21,753 bases of DNA. It comes from a virus. This document shows positions 6,766-19,485 of the stretch, in pieces. A model generated the notes under the pieces. The model had not been told where the DNA came from, made no database searches, and saw only the letters and a program-made list of their open reading frames with translations. Each line of letters opens with the position of its first letter. Within the stretch, counting starts at the first letter, position 1. The stretch lies in IMG/VR virus record IMGVR_UViG_3300035703_000434, positions 1-21,753 of that record. One strand, written 5' to 3'. Made by a program: the position numbers and the translations under genes.

Positions 6766-9700
6766 TTAATTAAGTGTTACTTTTCCGTTGAAGGTATCTT
6801 TCTTATCGTTTAGATTGTTATTAGAATAAAGGTTTTTTATTCTTTTTGTTTTATCGTTAACGTCGTTTGTAACGTTTGTATTATAATTACATTTTTTAAC
6901 CGTATTGTCGGGTATTTTCCATGTTGTTGCCTGAACATATCGTTCATCACCAGATACATTATTAAAGAATTTTTTTGTATATTCTTGAAAATTTTGACAA
7001 AGGTTTTTGAAGTTTTCACATGATATTTTTAATTGTTCAACCAAATTGATGTCTTGTTTTATTTCGGGACCTTCTGTTATAATATTTTGAAACTGAGTAA
7101 ATTTATCTGGTGTTAAAAATATGGGTGTCATATAATTTGCAAATCTGTTATATGAACAAATACCCCAAAAAGTATCAAACTCGCAATTATTGTTATTACT
7201 AACGGTTGATTGTTTTTCGTAATATAAATCTTTTGTAACATTATTTGTTAATAATAAATTATTATAATCATCAATCGTATTTTTCAAACTTGTGGTGTAA
7301 ACACCAAAAATTGACTCGGAACTTGTAATATTAAAAAATGTATCCCCACTCAAATCATATAATTTTGGTTCATTAGTTTGTAATAGTTCACCGTCTAAAC
7401 CTGATGAAACAACATCAAGTTGTCTAAAAATAAAATTTAACTCATTTTCGATAGTCACCAAACTTGATGTATCATTTGTTAATTTATTTAACATTTCCTC
7501 TTGCTGAACGTTTACTATAGATTTTAATTTTTCTTCCAACTCTCTTCTTTGTTTATTAGTCATACTTGATTTTACATAATCAGGTAATGACTTGTAAATT
7601 GGATTATCGTTACTTTCTATATCTTTTAAAATTTCACCTTTTAATTGTTCGATTAATTTTTGATATTGATTACTTTTACCGTAAATTTCAATTTCTTTTT
7701 TCTGTGGTGTAAATTCACTAATTTCTCCTTTTATATAATCTCTATTTTTTAACGCTATTTGCGACGCTCCATATGAATATGTGTTATTTAATTTTTCAAG
7801 TGTTTCAAAATATGATTTAAAATACTCCTGAATTTTAGATTGTAATGATTCATATAAAACACTATAATCCATTTCAGTATCACTAACTATTTGTCCTATG
7901 GTTGATCCTCCTTTTTTTGGTTGGACGCTGTTAATTTGAGCTTGTTGCTGTTGTGATATAGGCGGAAGTCCTCCTGTTATTTGTTCAACAACGTATTTGT
8001 CTAATTTACTAGTGTCTTCTGTTGCGGTTGCTCTTTCATCGTATATTTCAGTATTTGCGTAATAATTAAATGATAATGCGGTTTGTAATTCATCAACAGG
8101 GCCTTTTAAACCCATACCACCAATAATGTTAAACCCTAAACTAACTTCCACCATCATGGGTTGTAATCCTATTCCTTCAGGATTTATATCAAAATTTGCT
8201 TTATCGTATGATAATGTTAATGATGTCGGAACCGCTTTTGTGTGATAAAAGTCACCAACACGAATTACTAAAATTGGAGGCGCTCCAAATGAAGTATTTA
8301 ATGCGTCGTTATATTTTGGTCGACCATCAGGTCCTATAACAGGAATTGTCTGACCAGGTCTAGTACATTGATTTAAAAATGTTAATCTAGCATTTAAACC
8401 TTCTGGTGTCATGGAATGAAACGTTGGGTCAAAATACTTAATTCTATCTTTAATGCTATCATAAACCATCGGATCGGTTTCTTTGATTACTTCAAAATAA
8501 TCACATTCGGTAAATAAACTTCTTAGTATTTTTTTACTTATACCTTCTTTAATTTTTTGTTCAATAGTAATTTTTGGTTCAGGTTTAATACTTTGTGTGA
8601 CTTGTGTTAAAACATCTTGTGAGTTATTAACAACAGTTCCATTATCACCAGGATTTTCATCGGTTACTGGTTTATCAGGTGGTGGGATTGTTGCTTCAAT
8701 TTTTTGAATTGCAACTCGTCTACACGCCATGGCAGGTATACTATACCACTGAGCTTCATTAGGAGTTGTGGTATCAGGTATTTTAACACCATTAGCGGTC
8801 ACCGCAAAACTATTAACATTACAATTAATACTCGCATTTAAAACATCCCCACCTTGAGCATTAGTAACACTAATATCATTTGTTTCTGTAGTTGCCGTAG
8901 CTAAACTTACTGTTTTTGGTATTGCCGTTATTTCCCCTTGAGGATTTGGGATTATTTTAAACTTATCACCGTGTTGTTCAATTGTTGATCCATCTGAAAG
9001 TTTTTGTCTTAAAAACCATTTTGTGACAGAATCAATTCTTCTTTCAGATAATTTTTGATTATAAGATTCTGTTTGTGGTGCAGATGCAGAACCAATCATG
9101 GTTATGGTGATTGATCCCTTTTGTTTTATTAAAACATCATCAATTTGTTTTAATAATTCACTTTGTATTTGATTAAAGTTTCCTTCGATAACTTCACTAA
9201 AAAAATTATTAATTCCTGATGCGGAAAATATTGATCCGTCTGAATTAACAAATTGAGGTGCCTTCTGTAGATAAACATTTTCTAACCCAATATATTGATT
9301 ATAATAAGTGTCAAATGGAAACTGTGCTGTTCCACCATTTTTATTTTCTCCAGGTTTAGTTCCGTTAGGCCCACCAGGGACATCATTTTCAAAATAAAAA
9401 CCTAAACCTTCATACTTTGACCAATTATAATCAGGTGGTGGATTTTCAGCCTTAGTTTCTCCATCATTTGTTGTATTCGGAAGTTTATTAGCACCTGTAA
9501 CACTTTCTGTGGTTGTTGCTGCCGGGTTGGATGGAATACTTTCTAAAACTTGTATTTGTTCTTCAGATGTTAATCTAGGGTTATTTAATATCTCTTGATA
9601 CGTAAAAAGTTCATTAGGACTTAGATTATTAAATTTTGTTGCCAATTCATATATATCATATTTAACACAACCCGCGAAAAAGGAATCAACAACACTTTGT

Positions 9701-11826
9701 ATTCTTTCTTTAGAAATCCCTTTAAGTTGTTTTTCGATTACAGTATTCATAACCGATGGATGGTCAACCAAAATGGTAAAACTTAAAGTTCCTGCTCGTG
9801 ATGAATTTTTATATGTATAAATTGGTTCTGGTCTACCTAAAAATTCGGTTGGGGTAAAGCTAACTGATGGTGTATCACTATATTTGAGATTATATGGTGG
9901 GAACCACATTATTCGACCTCCATTAGGACCTCTTTCACACACGGGTAATTCATCATAGGTGAATCCTGGTTTGTCAGAAGTTCTCCATGCCAAATTTTCT
10001 ATTGATAACATATATTTTTTGACTTTACCGTCAACTATGTTGGTAGATCCTGGTGTTCTTAAAGGTGCAATATTTAAATTATATGTTTTATCAAAAACTG
10101 AATATTCGAATCTCCTTCCTTCCGTAGTAATACCATCGGTTTTTTGTAAGTCAGCATATGTGTAATATGGTGTATCTTTTTGAAATACTCTACAATATTC
10201 AATACCAGCCTGAGTTCCGTCTGTTTGATCAACATATGAAAGAACTCTAGATCCTTTTGTTAACTCCTTATATCCGTCATTAAAAACTTTTGAAACTTGG
10301 TTTATTGCGTTTCCTACATGTTTTAATCTTGTTTGTCCTTGAACTAAATCGGCTGAATTTACTAATTGTTGTGTAACATCTAATATAGATCCAGGTTTAA
10401 AATCTATGTCGGTTGATTGGTATTGTAAGTAATCGGCAGATATTTGATTAAATTCATCATCTAATGAACCCGTTCCTCCACCTGGAGTTGCCTTAAATCC
10501 GGCGTTTGGTTTATATTTAGGTGAGGTCCAAACTAATTGTCCTGATGTCCCTCCACCATCACTATACGATTTACCAGCTAAACCAAATTTAATTGATTCT
10601 ATATTACCTTCATATAGAACCCCCAATTCTTGTGGTCCATAAACAATAGTTGCTTGTTGTTCTCCAAACTGATTAACAGGAACTTGATTAGGTGGTGAAT
10701 CAATTTGACTAGGTTCGGCGTTTGGACTTCCAACGTAGTATTGACCACTTGCAGGAGAGTCTTGACCAACAAGAGCATTGCCTAAAGTAGCTAAACCTTG
10801 TATAAATCCAATATTATACGAAGGTCGATATTGATTATAGTTAAGTGCCGCAAATAAAACTGACCTGGTTCCGTTTCCTGTATTTGCAACAAATATTTCG
10901 GAAGGATTTCTAGTTTTATTTAATATTGGTGATAATAAACCACCTGTTAAATTATTTACAGTATTTAACGCATTACTAGTTTGTTGTGGATTGGTATATA
11001 GATTATTTTCCTCAAAATAATCACCCGGTATAAACGAAACAGGAAAATAAGTACCAGTTAATCTATTCGCCAATGCAACAGTGGCCAAAGCCGGATTTTC
11101 AGGGACAGTAATTCTCCAATCTCTAATAAAAAATGGTTGTTGTCCTGTCGCTAAAAGAGACGCAGAAAAAGGATCGGTTATTGTGTCTAAATTAATTGAT
11201 CCAACAGTCGCTTGATTAATTTCTTGTGCAATCCTTTCATTAAAAGCAAACTTCAATTGTGACGCACCAATCTGAGCTAAAAATGTATCTTGTGATAAAG
11301 GTCCATTTGATCCGGTTGGGTCATCTTGAAATACAATATTGAAAGTGGGGTATGAAGAAAAATTAAAATATCCAGGATCCCAATATGGTTGATAAATATT
11401 TTGTATTGACGATAAGTCAGTAATTATTACTAAATCTTTATACCCACCAGTAGGTCCCCATTTATTTGTAACATACGCAGATTCAATATAAAATTCATTA
11501 ATAATATCTAAATTTGTTTCTGACTTAGGGTAATAAGGTCCTTGATTTGGATTTAATACTGGTGTTACGTTAACACCTATTGGGTTACCAAATCCACCCT
11601 CAGGTCCAAATTCATTTAAGGGGTATAGATCGTTAGCGAATAAATTCGTAGAAACTAAGTTGTTCGGTGAATCAACAACATTATACACCGAAAGATTGGT
11701 TTCATAATTTATTGGGTTTTCAGGTGAGGTATAAGAACCGGGCACATTATATGGGGGTAAATTTCTTACCAAAAGTTGTTTTCTAAAACTCTCTGAATTA
11801 CCAAATGACAAAAAGCTTTCGGCCAT
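6766..11826 (-). CDS. 1686-aa baseplate/tube-cap protein with OmpA-like segment
   Basis: A large structural protein. Residues ~1-630 are Asn/Pro/Tyr-rich and unrecognised. Residues ~635-700 (IMWFPPYNLKY, then PEPIYTYKNSSRAGTLSFTI) resemble domains of tube-associated baseplate proteins. Residues ~900-945 hold an OmpA-like core: ITITMIGSASAPQ followed by YNQKLSERRIDSV, matching the family pattern N-x2-LS-x2-R-x3-V. The Asp that normally binds diaminopimelate in this family is Ser here. Residues ~1180-1240 (VIRVGDFYH, then SLTLSYDKANFDINPEGIGL) parallel the C-terminal part of T4 gp48 (SIRFDKTPNG...). Residues ~1330-1500 are charged and likely helical or coiled coil; the tail contains several Cys. 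It lies between the tape measure and the gp53-like gene, where T4-like phages encode hub and tube-cap proteins. I infer a gp48/gp54-like function expanded by fusion. The leader is A-rich (six or more A before ATG) with no Shine-Dalgarno. Confidence 0.85.
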   Translation of the reverse strand: MAESFLSFGNSESFRKQLLVRNLPPYNVPGSYTSPENPINYETNLSVYNVVDSPNNLVSTNLFANDLYPLNEFGPEGGFGNPIGVNVTPVLNPNQGPYYPKSETNLDIINEFYIESAYVTNKWGPTGGYKDLVIITDLSSIQNIYQPYWDPGYFNFSSYPTFNIVFQDDPTGSNGPLSQDTFLAQIGASQLKFAFNERIAQEINQATVGSINLDTITDPFSASLLATGQQPFFIRDWRITVPENPALATVALANRLTGTYFPVSFIPGDYFEENNLYTNPQQTSNALNTVNNLTGGLLSPILNKTRNPSEIFVANTGNGTRSVLFAALNYNQYRPSYNIGFIQGLATLGNALVGQDSPASGQYYVGSPNAEPSQIDSPPNQVPVNQFGEQQATIVYGPQELGVLYEGNIESIKFGLAGKSYSDGGGTSGQLVWTSPKYKPNAGFKATPGGGTGSLDDEFNQISADYLQYQSTDIDFKPGSILDVTQQLVNSADLVQGQTRLKHVGNAINQVSKVFNDGYKELTKGSRVLSYVDQTDGTQAGIEYCRVFQKDTPYYTYADLQKTDGITTEGRRFEYSVFDKTYNLNIAPLRTPGSTNIVDGKVKKYMLSIENLAWRTSDKPGFTYDELPVCERGPNGGRIMWFPPYNLKYSDTPSVSFTPTEFLGRPEPIYTYKNSSRAGTLSFTILVDHPSVMNTVIEKQLKGISKERIQSVVDSFFAGCVKYDIYELATKFNNLSPNELFTYQEILNNPRLTSEEQIQVLESIPSNPAATTTESVTGANKLPNTTNDGETKAENPPPDYNWSKYEGLGFYFENDVPGGPNGTKPGENKNGGTAQFPFDTYYNQYIGLENVYLQKAPQFVNSDGSIFSASGINNFFSEVIEGNFNQIQSELLKQIDDVLIKQKGSITITMIGSASAPQTESYNQKLSERRIDSVTKWFLRQKLSDGSTIEQHGDKFKIIPNPQGEITAIPKTVSLATATTETNDISVTNAQGGDVLNASINCNVNSFAVTANGVKIPDTTTPNEAQWYSIPAMACRRVAIQKIEATIPPPDKPVTDENPGDNGTVVNNSQDVLTQVTQSIKPEPKITIEQKIKEGISKKILRSLFTECDYFEVIKETDPMVYDSIKDRIKYFDPTFHSMTPEGLNARLTFLNQCTRPGQTIPVIGPDGRPKYNDALNTSFGAPPILVIRVGDFYHTKAVPTSLTLSYDKANFDINPEGIGLQPMMVEVSLGFNIIGGMGLKGPVDELQTALSFNYYANTEIYDERATATEDTSKLDKYVVEQITGGLPPISQQQQAQINSVQPKKGGSTIGQIVSDTEMDYSVLYESLQSKIQEYFKSYFETLEKLNNTYSYGASQIALKNRDYIKGEISEFTPQKKEIEIYGKSNQYQKLIEQLKGEILKDIESNDNPIYKSLPDYVKSSMTNKQRRELEEKLKSIVNVQQEEMLNKLTNDTSSLVTIENELNFIFRQLDVVSSGLDGELLQTNEPKLYDLSGDTFFNITSSESIFGVYTTSLKNTIDDYNNLLLTNNVTKDLYYEKQSTVSNNNNCEFDTFWGICSYNRFANYMTPIFLTPDKFTQFQNIITEGPEIKQDINLVEQLKISCENFKNLCQNFQEYTKKFFNNVSGDERYVQATTWKIPDNTVKKCNYNTNVTNDVNDKTKRIKNLYSNNNLNDKKDTFNGKVTLN

Positions 11827-13662: not shown

Positions 13663-13822
13663 TTAGTTTTTTTCTTTCTCCTCAATAAACTTATCGATGA
13701 TATATTTTCGAACATAGGTAGGCATATTCATAAACTCACTATACTGAGTTCTGAATATTTTAGAGAAATAATAAAATTCGTCTAAAATGATTTTTCTATA
13801 TTGATAAGAAAGGCCGAAAAAA
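13663..13822 (-). CDS. Frameshifted C-terminal extension of the gp26-like protein
   Basis: An open frame overlaps the last codons of the gp26-like gene, displaced by +1 (equivalently -2), and ends at a TAA at 13663, 31 nt before the tape measure ATG. From the shift site it encodes about 52 residues beginning GLSYQYRKIILDEFYYFSKI and ending KFIEEKEKN. The stretch EFMNMPTYVRKYIIDKF looks like real protein: amphipathic, aromatic- and charge-patterned. A MPTYERR-like motif recurs, as far as I recall, in small ORFs beside gp26-type genes of T4-like phages. It has no convincing start of its own. The only upstream in-frame candidate is a TTG at 13845; the first ATG would leave about 20 residues. Translation by ribosomal frameshifting from the gene above is therefore the best explanation. 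Alternatives are an independent TTG-started 60-aa protein or a degraded remnant. Confidence 0.55.
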
Positions 13823-14563
13823 CTCCACCCCAAAGGTAATGTCAACCATTACTCTTTCTCCTGACGGGGCTATTACTTCTTTTGTTAAATCTAGTTTAGG
13901 TTCATTATCTAATACAAATCTTCGAATGAATTTAGAATCTGCAATTGGCATACTTTCAATAAAAGTGGCAATTTTAATTCTATCAGTATCTCCATTTAAC
14001 GAAACTATTTGTTTATTTAATCTTGACGTTACTACAGGACTTGCGGATTGGATTGGGTAATTTCTAACTTCTTGTTCTAAACTGACTCTATCCCCCAACG
14101 TCATCATTTTTAAAACAACTTCATTTTTAGACATAGGTAGTTTTACTGTGAACATACCATCTTCATTAGGTTTTTGATTAGTTTTTCGAATGTTCAATTC
14201 GTCTAACATTATTTTTGCGGAAAATTGTTGTTCGGTTACCGGATCTTTAACTCCAATTGTGTATTCAGGACCAAAAGATGTGTTTCTTAAAAATAATAAT
14301 ACGGCCTCAACATCACCATCAGTTAATTCATCGGCTCTTAAATCTTTTTCATAAATTTTTCTACGTAATAATGGTAAGACTATTGACTCATTAACAGACA
14401 ATTTGGGGTCAAAATTTGCTAAAAGATTTTCATCCTGTGCAGTCAAATACCCTACTTTTATTGATTTCTTTTTAGATTTGTAAAATATACCTCCACTTGG
14501 TAATTGTATTACGTCATGGGGTAAATTAAAGTTCATCTGTTCATAGTTATTATTAGTGTCCAT
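13796..14563 (-). CDS. T4 gp26-like baseplate/tail assembly protein
   Basis: A 255-aa protein. Its N-terminus has the signature of the T4 baseplate protein family (Pfam PF12322, T4 gp26): DVIQLPSGGIFY, then IKVGYLTAQDENLL (residues ~18-50), where LPS-G-YK/P, followed by a 'T-x-x-D/E-E-x-LL' segment, is diagnostic. The middle (residues ~75-190) has a second conserved-looking block with TDGDVEAVLLFLRNTSFGPEY and VKDPVTEQQF. The C-terminal part ends VEFFRPFLSI before TAG. In T4, gp26 is needed for hub assembly and is scarce or absent in the virion, so a chaperone-like role is plausible. Its place between tube and tape measure, with an overlapping second frame, is that of the G/GT tail-assembly chaperones. 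The ATG follows an A-rich leader with no Shine-Dalgarno, downstream of the terminator at 14583-14620. The family call is confident; the chaperone role is inference. Confidence 0.85.
   Translation of the reverse strand: MDTNNNYEQMNFNLPHDVIQLPSGGIFYKSKKKSIKVGYLTAQDENLLANFDPKLSVNESIVLPLLRRKIYEKDLRADELTDGDVEAVLLFLRNTSFGPEYTIGVKDPVTEQQFSAKIMLDELNIRKTNQKPNEDGMFTVKLPMSKNEVVLKMMTLGDRVSLEQEVRNYPIQSASPVVTSRLNKQIVSLNGDTDRIKIATFIESMPIADSKFIRRFVLDNEPKLDLTKEVIAPSGERVMVDITFGVEFFRPFLSI
13814..13822 (-). other. Candidate programmed +1 (or -2) frameshift site
   Basis: On the minus strand the gp26-like frame reads TTT TTT CGG. A Phe-tRNA on the second TTT can slip +1 onto TTC, keeping perfect pairing, while CGG, an Arg codon expected to be rare in AT-rich DNA, would slow the A site. 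A -2 slip within the T run reaches the same frame with one more Phe. A -1 slip meets a stop after about 12 codons, so it is not favoured. The site is 7 codons before the zero-frame TAG (13796-13798). Confidence 0.45.
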
Positions 14564-14637: not shown

Positions 14638-15126
14638 TTAATAAACTAAAATACATCTATCGACAACTAAATTTGTGGTTATTGTTGATAAACCAGGTGA
14701 TGCATATGATAGCGATCCACCATTATATCCATCTAAAAATGCTCCTTGTAAAATCCATTTCTCAATAACAACTCCCGTTGGGTCTAACATTTCTAAATCC
14801 ACATTCTTTTTATAACCTGCGGCGTAACCCATACGACCTGTTACAGATTCAGCACATAATCTTATCCACTCCATAATTGCCTGAGTTGCTGACGGACCAA
14901 TAGGGTCCAAAAATGTAACCGCAATTTTACCCCAAGTAAAATCTGTGGCGACATTTGTGTTGGTGTTCAAGAATTTTATAGCCGCACTATTAACTGTTAA
15001 AGTTGGTCTTGCAGTTGTTTGAACAAACCATTCGTTAATTCCTAATGAACTTGGGAATCTTAAAATCCACCTATGATTTTGTTTTGGCTCATAGGGAATC
15101 GGCATTTTCATTAATAAATCAGCCAT
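14638..15126 (-). CDS. Tail tube protein (T4 gp19-like)
   Basis: A 162-aa protein, one residue shorter than T4 gp19 (163 aa). It begins with a short lead (MADLLMKMPIPYEPKQNHRW) and then the beta-strand pattern of T4-type tube proteins: WILRFPSSLGINEWFVQTTA near residue 20, a DFTWGKIAVTFLDPIGPSA strand and turn near 63-80, then the helix IMEWIRLC and a C-terminal GGSLSYASPG region. Hexameric rings of this protein stack on the tape measure and form the inner channel that carries DNA. The gene stands alone between its own octamer-containing upstream region and a strong terminator, suggesting a separate abundant transcript. In T4 the tube gene directly follows the sheath gene; here a HAD-fold gene intervenes. 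Confidence 0.9.
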   Translation of the reverse strand: MADLLMKMPIPYEPKQNHRWILRFPSSLGINEWFVQTTARPTLTVNSAAIKFLNTNTNVATDFTWGKIAVTFLDPIGPSATQAIMEWIRLCAESVTGRMGYAAGYKKNVDLEMLDPTGVVIEKWILQGAFLDGYNGGSLSYASPGLSTITTNLVVDRCILVY

Positions 15127-15222: not shown

Positions 15223-15240
15223 AACTAGACCGGACTAGTT
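15223..15240. repeat. Near-perfect 18-nt palindrome at the HAD gene stop
   Basis: The sequence AACTAG-ACCGGA-CTAGTT is a dyad with a single mismatched position per arm. It carries two CTAG tetramers around a central CCGG and overlaps the TAA of the HAD gene. On the minus strand a TTTTT run follows 9 nt later, so it might act as a weak terminator; a protein-binding site upstream of the tube promoter is another option. Confidence 0.4.
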
Positions 15241-16069
15241 ATTCATATGATGTTTTTCCTTCTTTACTAGTATGATAAATTTTTAAGTCATCTTTATTTG
15301 TAAAATGTTTTCTCATCGTTTGAACATTTCTTAAATCGTCATCTGAAAATCCAACATAAGGTATAAAATAGTTACTTATCTTATTTTTCATAAATGCCTT
15401 TTCTTGAAGTTGTTTTGATAAGTTTTGGACATACATCATAAATTCTTTCATTGCAAGAACTTTTAATTCTTCAGGGTTAGCAGCAGATCCTTCACCAAAA
15501 CTAACCGGATGGAAACGACACATATCTAAATAAACTCTAATTAGTTCATCGTCAGTTAATTCGTCTTCATCGGCCAACTCTCTATATTTTTTTAAGTTTT
15601 TAACAATTTCTTTTTTATTAAGTCCGTGTTTGTTTGAGTTGATTAAATTATAGACCGCTCTTTTAAGAACCGATGGTGTATGACCTCTTGCGGTAATAAT
15701 TGCAAAAATTGAACCGTTATTAACAGCCTCAACAAAATCGTTCCAAGCGGGTCCTATCGGTGCTTTCATTGAATCAACTAAGAATTTTTTATCACCGGTA
15801 ACTCTGAAGTCTCTAAAAGCTTCATCATCAAAACCAACAATAGTATGTCCTTTGTATTCGAAAGGGTCAACTCCAATTTCTGTTCTATATTCCGCAAAAT
15901 CTTCAGTAGACATACCAACACTTTTTCCATTATCATCCTTTAAATAAATTTCAGTTGGCATATACATAAGATTATCATCCCAATCAAACGCATAATATTT
16001 CATACTTGGTTTTAATTGTTCTTGAAAAATCTCCGTAATTATTTCTTTTACAATTTTTTTATAATTCAT
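15239..16069 (-). CDS. HAD-superfamily phosphatase-like protein
   Basis: A 276-aa protein. The N-terminal 20 residues (MNYKKIVKEIITEIFQEQL) form an amphipathic helix outside the catalytic fold. HAD motif I is AFDWDDNL with Asp29 as the expected nucleophile and Asp31 as the general acid (DxDxN rather than the commoner DxDxT). Motif II is AIITARG with Thr126. Motif IV is GFSDDDLRNV with Asp243-Asp245 as metal ligands. A Lys near 228-230 could be motif III. A cap-like insertion lies between motifs I and II, and a further helical region with VSFGEGSAANPEEL is at ~190-210. All core catalytic residues appear present, so a Mg-dependent phosphohydrolase is likely. The substrate is unknown: nucleotide, polynucleotide end, or phosphoprotein are possible. 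It lies between sheath and tube genes, downstream of the sheath terminator, with an AT-rich leader. T4 has no HAD gene at this place. Confidence 0.8.
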   Translation of the reverse strand: MNYKKIVKEIITEIFQEQLKPSMKYYAFDWDDNLMYMPTEIYLKDDNGKSVGMSTEDFAEYRTEIGVDPFEYKGHTIVGFDDEAFRDFRVTGDKKFLVDSMKAPIGPAWNDFVEAVNNGSIFAIITARGHTPSVLKRAVYNLINSNKHGLNKKEIVKNLKKYRELADEDELTDDELIRVYLDMCRFHPVSFGEGSAANPEELKVLAMKEFMMYVQNLSKQLQEKAFMKNKISNYFIPYVGFSDDDLRNVQTMRKHFTNKDDLKIYHTSKEGKTSYE

Positions 16070-16137: not shown

Positions 16138-19100
16138 TTATATATTTTCAAATGATGCTCCCGTTGGTGTGATATAGAACGTGATGTCTATGAATTCAAG
16201 AGCTCTTGTAGGTTTGATATAAATCTTACCTGTCAATTGGTTTCTATCTAAATCCTCAGGATCAGATGAAACGGTTACTCTAAAGTCATATAAACCACGG
16301 TCTCTTCTAATTGAATCTAAGATTGGGTTAACCGCATTTAAGAAGTCTTGTCTAACTTGTGCGTCGTTTTGTTCAAACAATAATCTCACCGATACTGCCG
16401 AAATCAATTTACGAGCTTGTAATAACAATCTTCTAACGTTGATTCTATCAAGAGCCGATTCTCTTACTTGTAAAGTTTTATTACCCCAAATTACGGTTCC
16501 CACATCAGAGAATGTTGCAATTGGGTTAATTCTACCAACATAAAGAATATCTCTATCTTCTTGAGTCAACTTCTTACGAGCCTTGATACAGTTAACAATA
16601 CCACGAGTGTAACCCGCCGCAGCGAACCATGGGAATGCGATGTTATCTGTCAACGCTAAGTTTCTTGTTACCTCAGCTGTCGGTGGGATGTAGATTTGTG
16701 TATTATTAACACTATCTCTTGTCAATACCCACGGATAGTAAGTTGCGGTATAGTTAGAGTCGATTCCTGTATTTTCTAAGTTATCAACCGCCTCAGTTGG
16801 GTAGATAAATCCATCAATACCGGTTGTAGTTGGTAAGAATAAATCATAATCAGGTGTAGTTGTGATATACAATGAGTCAGCTCTGTTGAACTCGATCATC
16901 TGAACCGCATCTTCCACTAAGTTACTATTATTAACATAATCAATACCCGGTGTAACAAATACATTGATGTTTGTAGCTTCAGGGTTAGCGAATGTTTGTT
17001 GTCCTAATAGATACGCATAATAGTCGGTGTTTGCGAAGTTCTCAGTTCCATCACCTAATGCGATTTCTTTAAACGCTCCCCAACCAACTGCCTGTGGATA
17101 TCTTGATGAAGGACAAGCCCCATTTAAGAACCCTCTTCTACCAATTTGGAATTCATCACCGTTTGTTCTATATTCTCTGTAGATATCCCAACCATCAAAT
17201 CCACCTTGAACTAGTAACGTAAATTTACGTGCGAATAATCGATAGTAAGGACTTGTTGGGAATTCAGGTTCTGTTGTGAATGTAGCATTACCCGTTACAA
17301 ATCTTGGTTGACCACTTGTTGAGAACTCAGGTCCGATTGTTAAACCACTTGCGTTTTGATCCATGTGGAAACCAGCCGATCTAAAGTTAAAATCAAGACC
17401 TTCTAAATCGCAAGAGTTAAGAGGATTTCTTTTTCCGTAATATTCGAAGAAGTTTGGATCCCAACCTAATGAGTTAGAAATACCTAAATAAGTTCTTCTT
17501 ACATTATCTCCTGGGCTTATTAATGAATTATCATTACCTGATGATAGACCAAATGGTGGATTATAAATAACTTCACCAGGGAAGTCATATTTACCTTTAA
17601 TAATTGGGAATGGTGATTGTGCTCCTGCGTAATTTCTAAAATTAAATCCATTAAATCCACAAGGAAGTGCATCTATTGGTGCGTCCTCAGACATTTCAAC
17701 CATAACATAACGAGATCTTAGCTCGTATTCACCATCTAAAGTTCCAATTTTATTTGCGATGTAGTTGTTTTGTCCTGGATCCATTGAACAGTTTGTAAAC
17801 TTCTCAATAACCACAGGGTTAGCATCTGTATCAAAATAGTCACGAATTAATACATCAAAAGTTAAATTGTTATATGTTTGATTAACAATTGATATTTTAA
17901 CTAAAGTATTTGCTCCGTCACCATCTGAAATTGTGTAGAATCTAAATAAGTCATACACTTTATTACCTCTAAGTTCTGACACCACGAAAGGTGATGATGG
18001 TGTTTGCCATCTATCTAAATACCAACCAATTGAGTTAGGATCACCACTTTGTGCCGAATCTAATGCGATTAGGTTAGGGTTAAGACCTCTAATATATCCT
18101 TTTCTCCAAGCGAAGTTTAAGAATGATTGGAAGTTTTCTTCTGCGAATACTGGAACTTCTAATCTTGGTTTTTGGAAGTTTGTAACCCCAAATACTTTTG
18201 TCCAATATTCAGCATCATTTTGTGTAAATGATGTTTCAAATGTGTAAGGTGTTCCGAATCTATCAACAACATTAACACCAAAAGTTGCGTATGGGTTTTT
18301 AAGAACTGCAGAATATTGACCAGTCATATCTAAAGTAACATCAGATGTTCCTGTTACAGAATATCTTGGGTTTTCGGCATTTGTATAAGTTGCTAAACCT
18401 CTTGATCTTAAAGTTCCAACAACAACATTATCATAGTCAACATATGATGTTCCTGTGTAATAATAAATCTTACCAACAATAGTTCCTGAATAACAATCGA
18501 TATTAACAGGAGTTGGTGTTGGTGTTGGTGATGTAAATGGAACAGGAGACACACAAGGAGCCTGTGAAGGAGTTGGTGTAGGTGTTGACGAAGGTGCAAT
18601 TGTTGTTGTTGTGGTCACAACAAATGGAGTCAATCCTGATACGTATGTGAAGAAAGAGTATCCTGAATAGTTTGTATTTCCAGTATTAGAAAACAAAGCA
18701 TAATACCAAGAATCATTCAAAGGAGAACTTAAACTAGTGTCGTCTAAAGAAACTGATGGAACATCAAATACATTAGTTTCTCCTGTATATCCAGCTCCAC
18801 TTAATGTTAAATAATCGTTTGTTGCGATCGAACCAAAATATGCAATTTGCTCATCTTCCGCAATTGATGGGTTATTTGATGTTATAATTCCAAAAATTAA
18901 ATTTCTAATTTGAGAATCCAATGTTGAAGTGTCCCCATTAAATTCTTCATATTGTTCGTTTAATATAGTTTGGATTTCCGCAGGGAAATCAACAGAATAA
19001 CCGATTGTTGATGTTGAGTTTGTGCATGCGGTAAAAGGAACTGTAAATGACAATTCTTTTGGTGTAACACAAACAGTTTCACAAGTTGCGGTTAAAGTTT

Positions 19101-19485
19101 GAGAGCTTAAACACCAAACACCAATAGTTGATGGGTCAACGTTAGCCACAGTTGCTACAGACCATGATGGACCTGCATCATATCCTGATAAACCAAGAAT
19201 TCTAGTTACGAATAACTGATTAGATTGTTGAAGGTATGCCTTGGCGATATACGACGCCTCATACTTCGGGATTTGAGTATTTACGAATTTTTCAGGAGAT
19301 GTTCCCCCAAATACCGTTTGAAACTCGTCAAAGTTTGTGATAAAAATAGGTTCAAATGCTGGACCTATCAAAGTTTCACCCACAATACCTAATGTTGTTA
19401 CACCTACACTTTGAGCGACAAAGCTTAAGTCAACTTCAGAAGTATATACACCGGGTGAAACAAAAACCTTACTGTTAGTTGCCAT
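16138..19485 (-). CDS. Tail sheath protein, enlarged (T4 gp18-like)
   Basis: An 1115-aa protein, against 659 aa for T4 gp18. The N-terminus carries the sheath signature: FVSPGVYTSEVDLSF, then GPAFEPIFITNFDEFQTVFG (residues ~42-61) and YIAKAYLQQSNQLFVTRILG (~79-98). The C-terminal ~200 residues are classical sheath core: GIVNCIKARKKLTQEDRDIL, ARKLISAVSVRLLFEQND and a final beta strand LEFIDITFYI, which in other contractile tails joins neighbouring subunits. Extra mass lies between the ends: a Cys-containing stretch (residues ~127-165, four Cys), a Thr/Pro-rich linker (~288-330) and further beta-rich sequence. These insertions are probably surface domains. The protein contracts to drive the tube into the cell. 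The gene has an octamer-containing upstream region and its own terminator. The start is the first ATG and agrees with the family's N-terminus. Confidence 0.93.
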   Translation of the reverse strand: MATNSKVFVSPGVYTSEVDLSFVAQSVGVTTLGIVGETLIGPAFEPIFITNFDEFQTVFGGTSPEKFVNTQIPKYEASYIAKAYLQQSNQLFVTRILGLSGYDAGPSWSVATVANVDPSTIGVWCLSSQTLTATCETVCVTPKELSFTVPFTACTNSTSTIGYSVDFPAEIQTILNEQYEEFNGDTSTLDSQIRNLIFGIITSNNPSIAEDEQIAYFGSIATNDYLTLSGAGYTGETNVFDVPSVSLDDTSLSSPLNDSWYYALFSNTGNTNYSGYSFFTYVSGLTPFVVTTTTTIAPSSTPTPTPSQAPCVSPVPFTSPTPTPTPVNIDCYSGTIVGKIYYYTGTSYVDYDNVVVGTLRSRGLATYTNAENPRYSVTGTSDVTLDMTGQYSAVLKNPYATFGVNVVDRFGTPYTFETSFTQNDAEYWTKVFGVTNFQKPRLEVPVFAEENFQSFLNFAWRKGYIRGLNPNLIALDSAQSGDPNSIGWYLDRWQTPSSPFVVSELRGNKVYDLFRFYTISDGDGANTLVKISIVNQTYNNLTFDVLIRDYFDTDANPVVIEKFTNCSMDPGQNNYIANKIGTLDGEYELRSRYVMVEMSEDAPIDALPCGFNGFNFRNYAGAQSPFPIIKGKYDFPGEVIYNPPFGLSSGNDNSLISPGDNVRRTYLGISNSLGWDPNFFEYYGKRNPLNSCDLEGLDFNFRSAGFHMDQNASGLTIGPEFSTSGQPRFVTGNATFTTEPEFPTSPYYRLFARKFTLLVQGGFDGWDIYREYRTNGDEFQIGRRGFLNGACPSSRYPQAVGWGAFKEIALGDGTENFANTDYYAYLLGQQTFANPEATNINVFVTPGIDYVNNSNLVEDAVQMIEFNRADSLYITTTPDYDLFLPTTTGIDGFIYPTEAVDNLENTGIDSNYTATYYPWVLTRDSVNNTQIYIPPTAEVTRNLALTDNIAFPWFAAAGYTRGIVNCIKARKKLTQEDRDILYVGRINPIATFSDVGTVIWGNKTLQVRESALDRINVRRLLLQARKLISAVSVRLLFEQNDAQVRQDFLNAVNPILDSIRRDRGLYDFRVTVSSDPEDLDRNQLTGKIYIKPTRALEFIDITFYITPTGASFENI
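18509..18615 (-). repeat. Thr/Pro-rich coding repeat in the sheath gene
   Basis: Two nearly identical 19-nt units (18509-18527 and 18569-18587, one mismatch) lie exactly 60 nt apart. They encode alternating Thr-Pro runs (TPTPTP), next to a run of five Thr codons at the other end. The stretch encodes a flexible linker inside the sheath protein and is prone to slippage or recombination. Nearby Cys codons flank the two runs. Confidence 0.75.

Follow-up and report, generated by a model that had tools for sequence, protein, structure and literature searches.

A predicted +1 frameshift at UUU_UUU_CGG and a probable gp26-type tail-assembly chaperone pair in T4-type contractile phages

The gp26-type locus of an IMG/VR virus record of 21,753 bases (the whole stretch analyzed, referred to here as the window) very probably encodes the two tail-assembly chaperones (TAC) of a T4-type contractile phage, the long form being generated by +1 frameshifting (estimated probability about 0.88). 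This reading draws on homology, overlap, conservation of frame and site, purifying selection and the lack of a conserved start, all taken from the sequence. From these features we infer the shift itself and its efficiency: most ribosomes would complete the gp26-like gene and release the short form TAC-N, whereas the extreme rarity of CGG in the phage would cause a minority to stall at UUU_UUU_CGG. The P-site Phe-tRNA would then slip +1 onto UUC (or UUU) ahead of the rare CGG, giving rise to the long form TAC-NC. If the analogy with lambda G/GT holds, the N domain would coat the tape measure, tail-tube subunits would be brought in by the C domain, and both forms would be missing from the finished tail.

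The gp26-type locus and its overlapping reading frame

The structural genes are located on the minus strand of the window (Table 1). The gp26-like protein is similar to PF12322 (E=2.6e-9; 37.5 bits, above the curated Pfam cut-off of 24.5) and to phrog_150 (E=1.4e-13). Its gene lies between the tube gene (phrog_4542) and a 584-aa ORF in the tape-measure position, for which neither a significant Pfam or PHROG match nor a BLASTP match to the immuto tape measure was found. The order sheath, tube, TAC, second ORF (ORF2) and tape measure candidate was found again in other phages. In the same region, a 276-aa ORF between tube and sheath (15239-16069, minus strand) begins with an HAD-phosphatase-like motif (FDWDDNL) and is without significant Pfam or PHROG match. 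The recognized sheath domains are confined to approximately residues 836-1113 of the 1,115-aa sheath protein; the long stretch before them includes a T/P-rich linker. A 1,686-aa baseplate-region protein (6766-11826, minus strand) contains an OmpA-like stretch (GSASA...NQKLSERRIDSVTKWF), recognized by eye only, and the Pfam search of the window also returned a DUF7132 match below the cut-off (E 0.0017).

Table 1. Features of the chaperone locus and neighboring tail genes in the window
Feature	Position	Strand	Evidence
Tail sheath protein (contractile tail)	16138..19485	-	PF17482 E=3.6e-9; phrog_23 E=2.3e-54
gp19-like tail tube protein, adjacent to and upstream of the chaperone gene	14638..15126	-	phrog_4542 E=3.3e-20
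TAC-N ('G-like') short form, gp26-type, 255 aa	13796..14563	-	PF12322 / phrog_150
Predicted long form TAC-NC ('GT-like'), 299 aa, ...GVEFF/GLSYQYRK...	13663..14563	-	inferred, +1 fusion
Conserved element TTT GGG GTG GAG directly upstream of the site	13823..13834	-	GGG 84/84
Shift site TTT_TTT_CGG_C (UUU_UUU_CGG)	13813..13822	-	TTTTTTCG in 84/84
TAC-C ('T-like') extension after +1 shift, 50 residues GLSYQYRK...EEKEKN, then TAA	13663..13815	-	
Zero-frame stop TAG, end of short form	13796..13798	-	
Presumed tape measure protein, 584 aa	11877..13631	-	position only, between chaperone locus and baseplate genes

ORF2, open in the +1 frame from 13848 to 13663, shares 53 nt with the 3' part of the gp26-like gene and terminates 31 nt upstream of the tape measure candidate, which bears out both the coordinates and the frame proposed in the original prediction. 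The length of approximately 52 codons given there applies to a real ORF, of which 50 residues are counted from the shift. Conservation was analyzed in 84 loci, i.e. the window and 83 IMG/VR relatives (3 close loci and 80 from an alignment query). In all 84, the +1 ORF runs uninterrupted from within the last part of gp26 to about 45 codons beyond the stop; in one of them (L066) ORF2 is cut by the contig end. Beyond the gp26 stop, the 61 distinct sequences contain no stops in the +1 frame, compared to means of 5.5 in frame 0 and 3.75 in -1. The median dN/dS of this part of ORF2 is about 0.37 (0.29 for gp26 itself), by which measure the extension is under purifying selection. The window ORF2 also matches that of the immuto clade in a profile comparison (E=2e-8). 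The second ORF overlaps the 3' end of the gp26-like gene in another frame and has no conserved start of its own. The comparison with relatives called for by the original prediction found overlap, relative frame and slippery T run all conserved, and no relative in the window or immuto clade had ORF2 in another frame or with a conserved own start.

Public annotations make ORF2 a separate short hypothetical gene, with the start placed arbitrarily, in SP-15, immuto, BRock, Mel-JY01, IC12 and phiAS5 (gene calls L090:4734-4853, L088:4875-4985, L091:4758-4940, L086:4740-4976, L094:4720-4860 and L096:4762-4884), and it is unannotated altogether in LIS04 and pSt2308.

Shift site and distribution among phages

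In the stretch TTT TTT CGG (13822-13814), CGG is the first of seven sense codons, ending with ATA, that precede the TAG stop, a position close to the predicted one. The surrounding nucleotides are nearly frozen as TTY-GGG-GTN-GAN-TTT-TTT-CGN-CCN, with the protein reading F-G-V-E/D-F-F-R-P in the 84 loci. GGG, TTT TTT and CGN are present in 84/84, CGG in 78/84 and CCT in 83/84. In the rest of gp26 of this clade, CGG accounts for 2/579 Arg codons and GGG for 59/658 Gly codons. In a tally of 6,859 codons from ten predicted genes, neither CGG nor an in-frame TTT_CGN occurred in the window outside this site, a rarity that refers to the phage's own genes. All 84 loci combine an in-frame UUU_CGN with a +1 ORF downstream, and all have the slippery TTTTTTCGN in the overlap, where synonymous change is suppressed: at codons for invariant amino acids, codon diversity is 0.36 of expectation at the site versus 0.87 in the gene body.

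GGGGT is found upstream of the shift site throughout the tallied clade. The element containing it, TTT GGG GTG GAG, might stimulate the shift by rRNA pairing or pausing, and the rare CGG would likewise be stimulatory. If the hosts are Bacteroidota, whose ribosomes mostly skip Shine-Dalgarno (SD) pairing, the role of GGGGT is unexplained. A conserved downstream RNA structure was not found (mean z -0.44 in 12 sequences); two single sequences, the window and L012, fold well downstream of the site, the fold not being conserved.

ORF2 is located in the +1 frame in twelve distant phage genomes, mostly at UUU_C or UUU_U: Microcystis phage Mel-JY01, Flavobacterium phage immuto, uncultured LR756508, SagM-GXN1, Listeria phage LIS04, Bacillus phage SP-15, the Streptomyces phages BRock, LuckySocke, pSt2308 and GiJojo, Rhodothermus phage RM378 and Pseudomonas phage QdP_Psa3. 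The immuto clade has the +1 arrangement in all 79 testable IMG/VR loci, with the sites TTT_TTT_TGG (40), TTT_CTT_TGG (34), TTT_CTA_TGG (4) and TTT_CTT_TAC (1). A query with SP-15 recovered only SP-15 itself from IMG/VR, and bacterial genomes yielded only two weak relatives, both +1, one of them in a Flavobacteriales MAG.

In a cyanophage-type group (Sf-FS3 and 80 IMG/VR relatives), ORF2 occupies the -1 frame in 80/80 loci, the site being U_UUU_UUC, and GGAGGG is positioned nine bases upstream of this site in 67/80. Such an upstream SD-like layout is known as a -1 stimulator in dnaX. In each of the 80 loci of this group (L182-L261), the -1 frame moreover contains an ATG no more than 12 codons from the shift site; ORF2 could therefore arise there both as a fusion and as a free 'gp51'. 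The -1 frame was likewise found in Rhizobium phages IC12 and RL38J1, Aeromonas phage phiAS5, Pseudomonas phage Cygsa01 and Agrobacterium phage Atu_ph07. The N-domain tree places a -1/two-gene group apart from a mainly +1 group (four label changes versus a shuffled mean of 16), with long deep branches at which false joins are possible. In the 595 kb phage LR756511 (L278:2238), ORF2 follows a TAATG stop/start overlap and no slippery site is evident near the gp26 stop; this phage may have switched to coupled initiation.

Relation to T4 gp26 and gp51

T4 gp26 (208 aa) is covered by PF12322 end to end. T4 gp51 (249 aa) contains the same family at residues 1-201 (E=3.9e-52), followed by approximately 48 further residues, which match the profile of cyanophage ORF2 (E=4e-11; none of 30 column shuffles scored as high). 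Since gp51 consists of PF12322 plus a C-domain, T4 keeps the short form (26) and an in-frame long form (51) as two genes. Cyanophage ORF2 in turn matches immuto ORF2 (profile match, E=2e-6). Direct profile comparisons of the window ORF2 were not significant, either with the T4 gp51 C-terminus (E=0.32) or with cyanophage ORF2; homology of the window ORF2 to the gp51 extension is supported solely through the profile chain gp51-cyanophage-immuto-window. Cyanophage gp51 was described as missing the first ~200 residues (Sullivan et al. 2010, PMC3037559), as expected if gp51 there is the frameshifted domain only.

The AlphaFold models of the gp26-like protein (pLDDT 88) and of a T4-type gp51 (pLDDT 86) have their helix/strand order in common. 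In the gp51 model, the final hairpin and one short helix lead straight into the three helices of the C-domain, and in the window gene the predicted frameshift falls at the point matching the start of this domain. The gp26-like model resembles the predicted gp26 proteins of SP-15 (TM 0.79) and Aeromonas phage 25 (E=3.5e-5). Neither model had a match below E 0.001 in the PDB, so that no solved chaperone was matched.

Tail-assembly chaperones of T4-like phages were identified by Vladimirov, Gautam & Davidson 2022 (Virology 566:9-15), as cited in PMC10885494 and PMC12846349; according to the latter, that study reported poly-T -1 sites in the TAC-N genes of T4-like phages. The original prediction had suggested the PF12322 (gp26) family as the chaperone pair of this lineage, which agrees with the conserved overlap, frame and site, and had linked the T4 hub-assembly factors to the G/GT system, a link that is supported by the profile chain and was already published.

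Direction of the shift, alternatives and comparison with known systems

Shifts of +1 and of -2 lead into the same frame. The original prediction of a programmed +1/-2 frameshift was correct with regard to the frame; the direction is better read as +1. Frameshifts of -2 are reported for phage Mu and arteriviruses, and the same fusion could in principle be reached if the P-site Phe-tRNA moved back two bases on the six-U run, yielding ...EFFFGLS with the junction peptide VEFFFGLSYQYR instead of VEFFGLSYQYR. The six U's of the window clade permit re-pairing after either shift. At BRock CUG_UUU_CGC, SagM-GXN1 UUC_UUU_CGU, immuto UUU_CUU_UGG and QdP_Psa3 UUC_UUU_CCC, however, re-pairing is possible after +1 but not after -2, which favors +1. 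Moreover, CG is retained in an otherwise unused codon, a requirement of the +1 slip, and the shift at influenza A UUU_CGU was determined as +1 by mass spectrometry (PMC3498833), where it is explained by a preference of Phe-tRNA for UUC over UUU ahead of a disfavored CGN codon. A -2 shift is therefore improbable. The favored reading of the window site is a +1 shift, either from P-site UUU to UUC or from the first UUU to UUU, with the same predicted product.

It is slightly less probable still that ORF2 is a separate small protein with its own start (TTG or a late ATG), produced e.g. by translational coupling and not as a fusion. In 80/83 loci a TTG precedes the shift by six codons, the cyanophage-type clade has its ATG near the ORF2 start in 80/80, and public annotations list ORF2 as its own gene. 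The TTG, however, is a by-product of the conserved TTTGGGG and is replaced by TCG in three relatives that retain ORF2, and an ATG column conserved across the clade loci was not found, in line with the predicted lack of a good start. In addition, a separate protein leaves the invariant TTTTTTCGN unexplained, and T4 encodes the fusion in frame. Transcriptional slippage, by which RNA polymerase would add or drop bases in the T run and both proteins would arise from mixed mRNAs, is more doubtful again: the six-T run exists, but BRock, pSt2308, GiJojo, LuckySocke and SagM have only TTT followed by C, which is too short, and selection for CGN is not accounted for. A sequencing or assembly indel in one continuous gene, or a pseudogene, was ruled out for practical purposes, since the identical frame break occurs in 84/84 independent clade contigs and in isolate genomes.

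The +1 fusion shares features with several known systems. With T4 gp26/gp51 (TAC-N/TAC-NC), the window has the PF12322 N-domain in common, by profile chain also the C-domain, and the occurrence of short and long forms. They differ in that the window would shift +1 at UUU_UUU_CGG, while poly-T -1 sites are attributed to T4-like TAC-N genes in PMC12846349 and T4 itself has two genes. The order of tube, chaperone, overlapping C-domain ORF and tape measure (candidate in the window) is also that of lambda gpG/gpGT and other siphophage chaperones, and in lambda the long form is likewise produced by frameshifting near the 3' end. The lambda shift is -1, compared to the +1 read here, and the window protein had no fold match to solved structures. 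A P-site UUU followed by CGN with a +1 downstream frame is found in influenza A PA-X (UCC_UUU_CGU), amalgaviruses and others (PMC3498833, PMC5009743). These sites and the window are alike in the disfavored A-site codon and in having no obvious RNA structure; the former belong to RNA viruses of eukaryotes, whereas the window derives from a dsDNA phage and has a conserved GGGGT directly upstream.

The +1 frameshift of prfB (RF2) occurs at CUU_UGA with an upstream SD-like element. Both prfB and the window reading involve a +1 slip before a slow A site and a G-rich element a few bases upstream, and the immuto clade has CUU_UGG. In prfB the A site holds a stop codon; the phage sites have a sense codon (CGG/UGG) and are not known to be autoregulatory.

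Earlier publications cover the chaperone role of gp26/gp51 as well as -1 frameshifting among T4-like phages. The +1 version at influenza-like UUU_C(G) sites, its constraint and its breadth appear to be new, as far as Vladimirov 2022 is represented in the papers citing it; such a class of +1 shift sites was predicted by Firth et al. 2012 (PMC3498833). Taken broadly, T4-type contractile phages that infect members of several bacterial phyla probably form a class in which the long chaperone arises when Phe-tRNA slips +1 on UUU_C or UUU_U before a disfavored codon, the bacterial equivalent of the PA-X type site of influenza. Sister lineages would instead slip -1 on U_UUU_UUC with the help of an SD-like element, and T4 has two genes. 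A large and for the most part uncultured group of contractile phages would thereby join those with a lambda-type chaperone switch, and one protein pair would be reached by three routes, i.e. +1 shift, -1 shift and two genes. The annotation of T-like domains, which at present are either overlooked or entered as short hypothetical genes, would also be corrected. Assays of the natural site would be simple and could be used to test UUU_C slippage on bacterial ribosomes.
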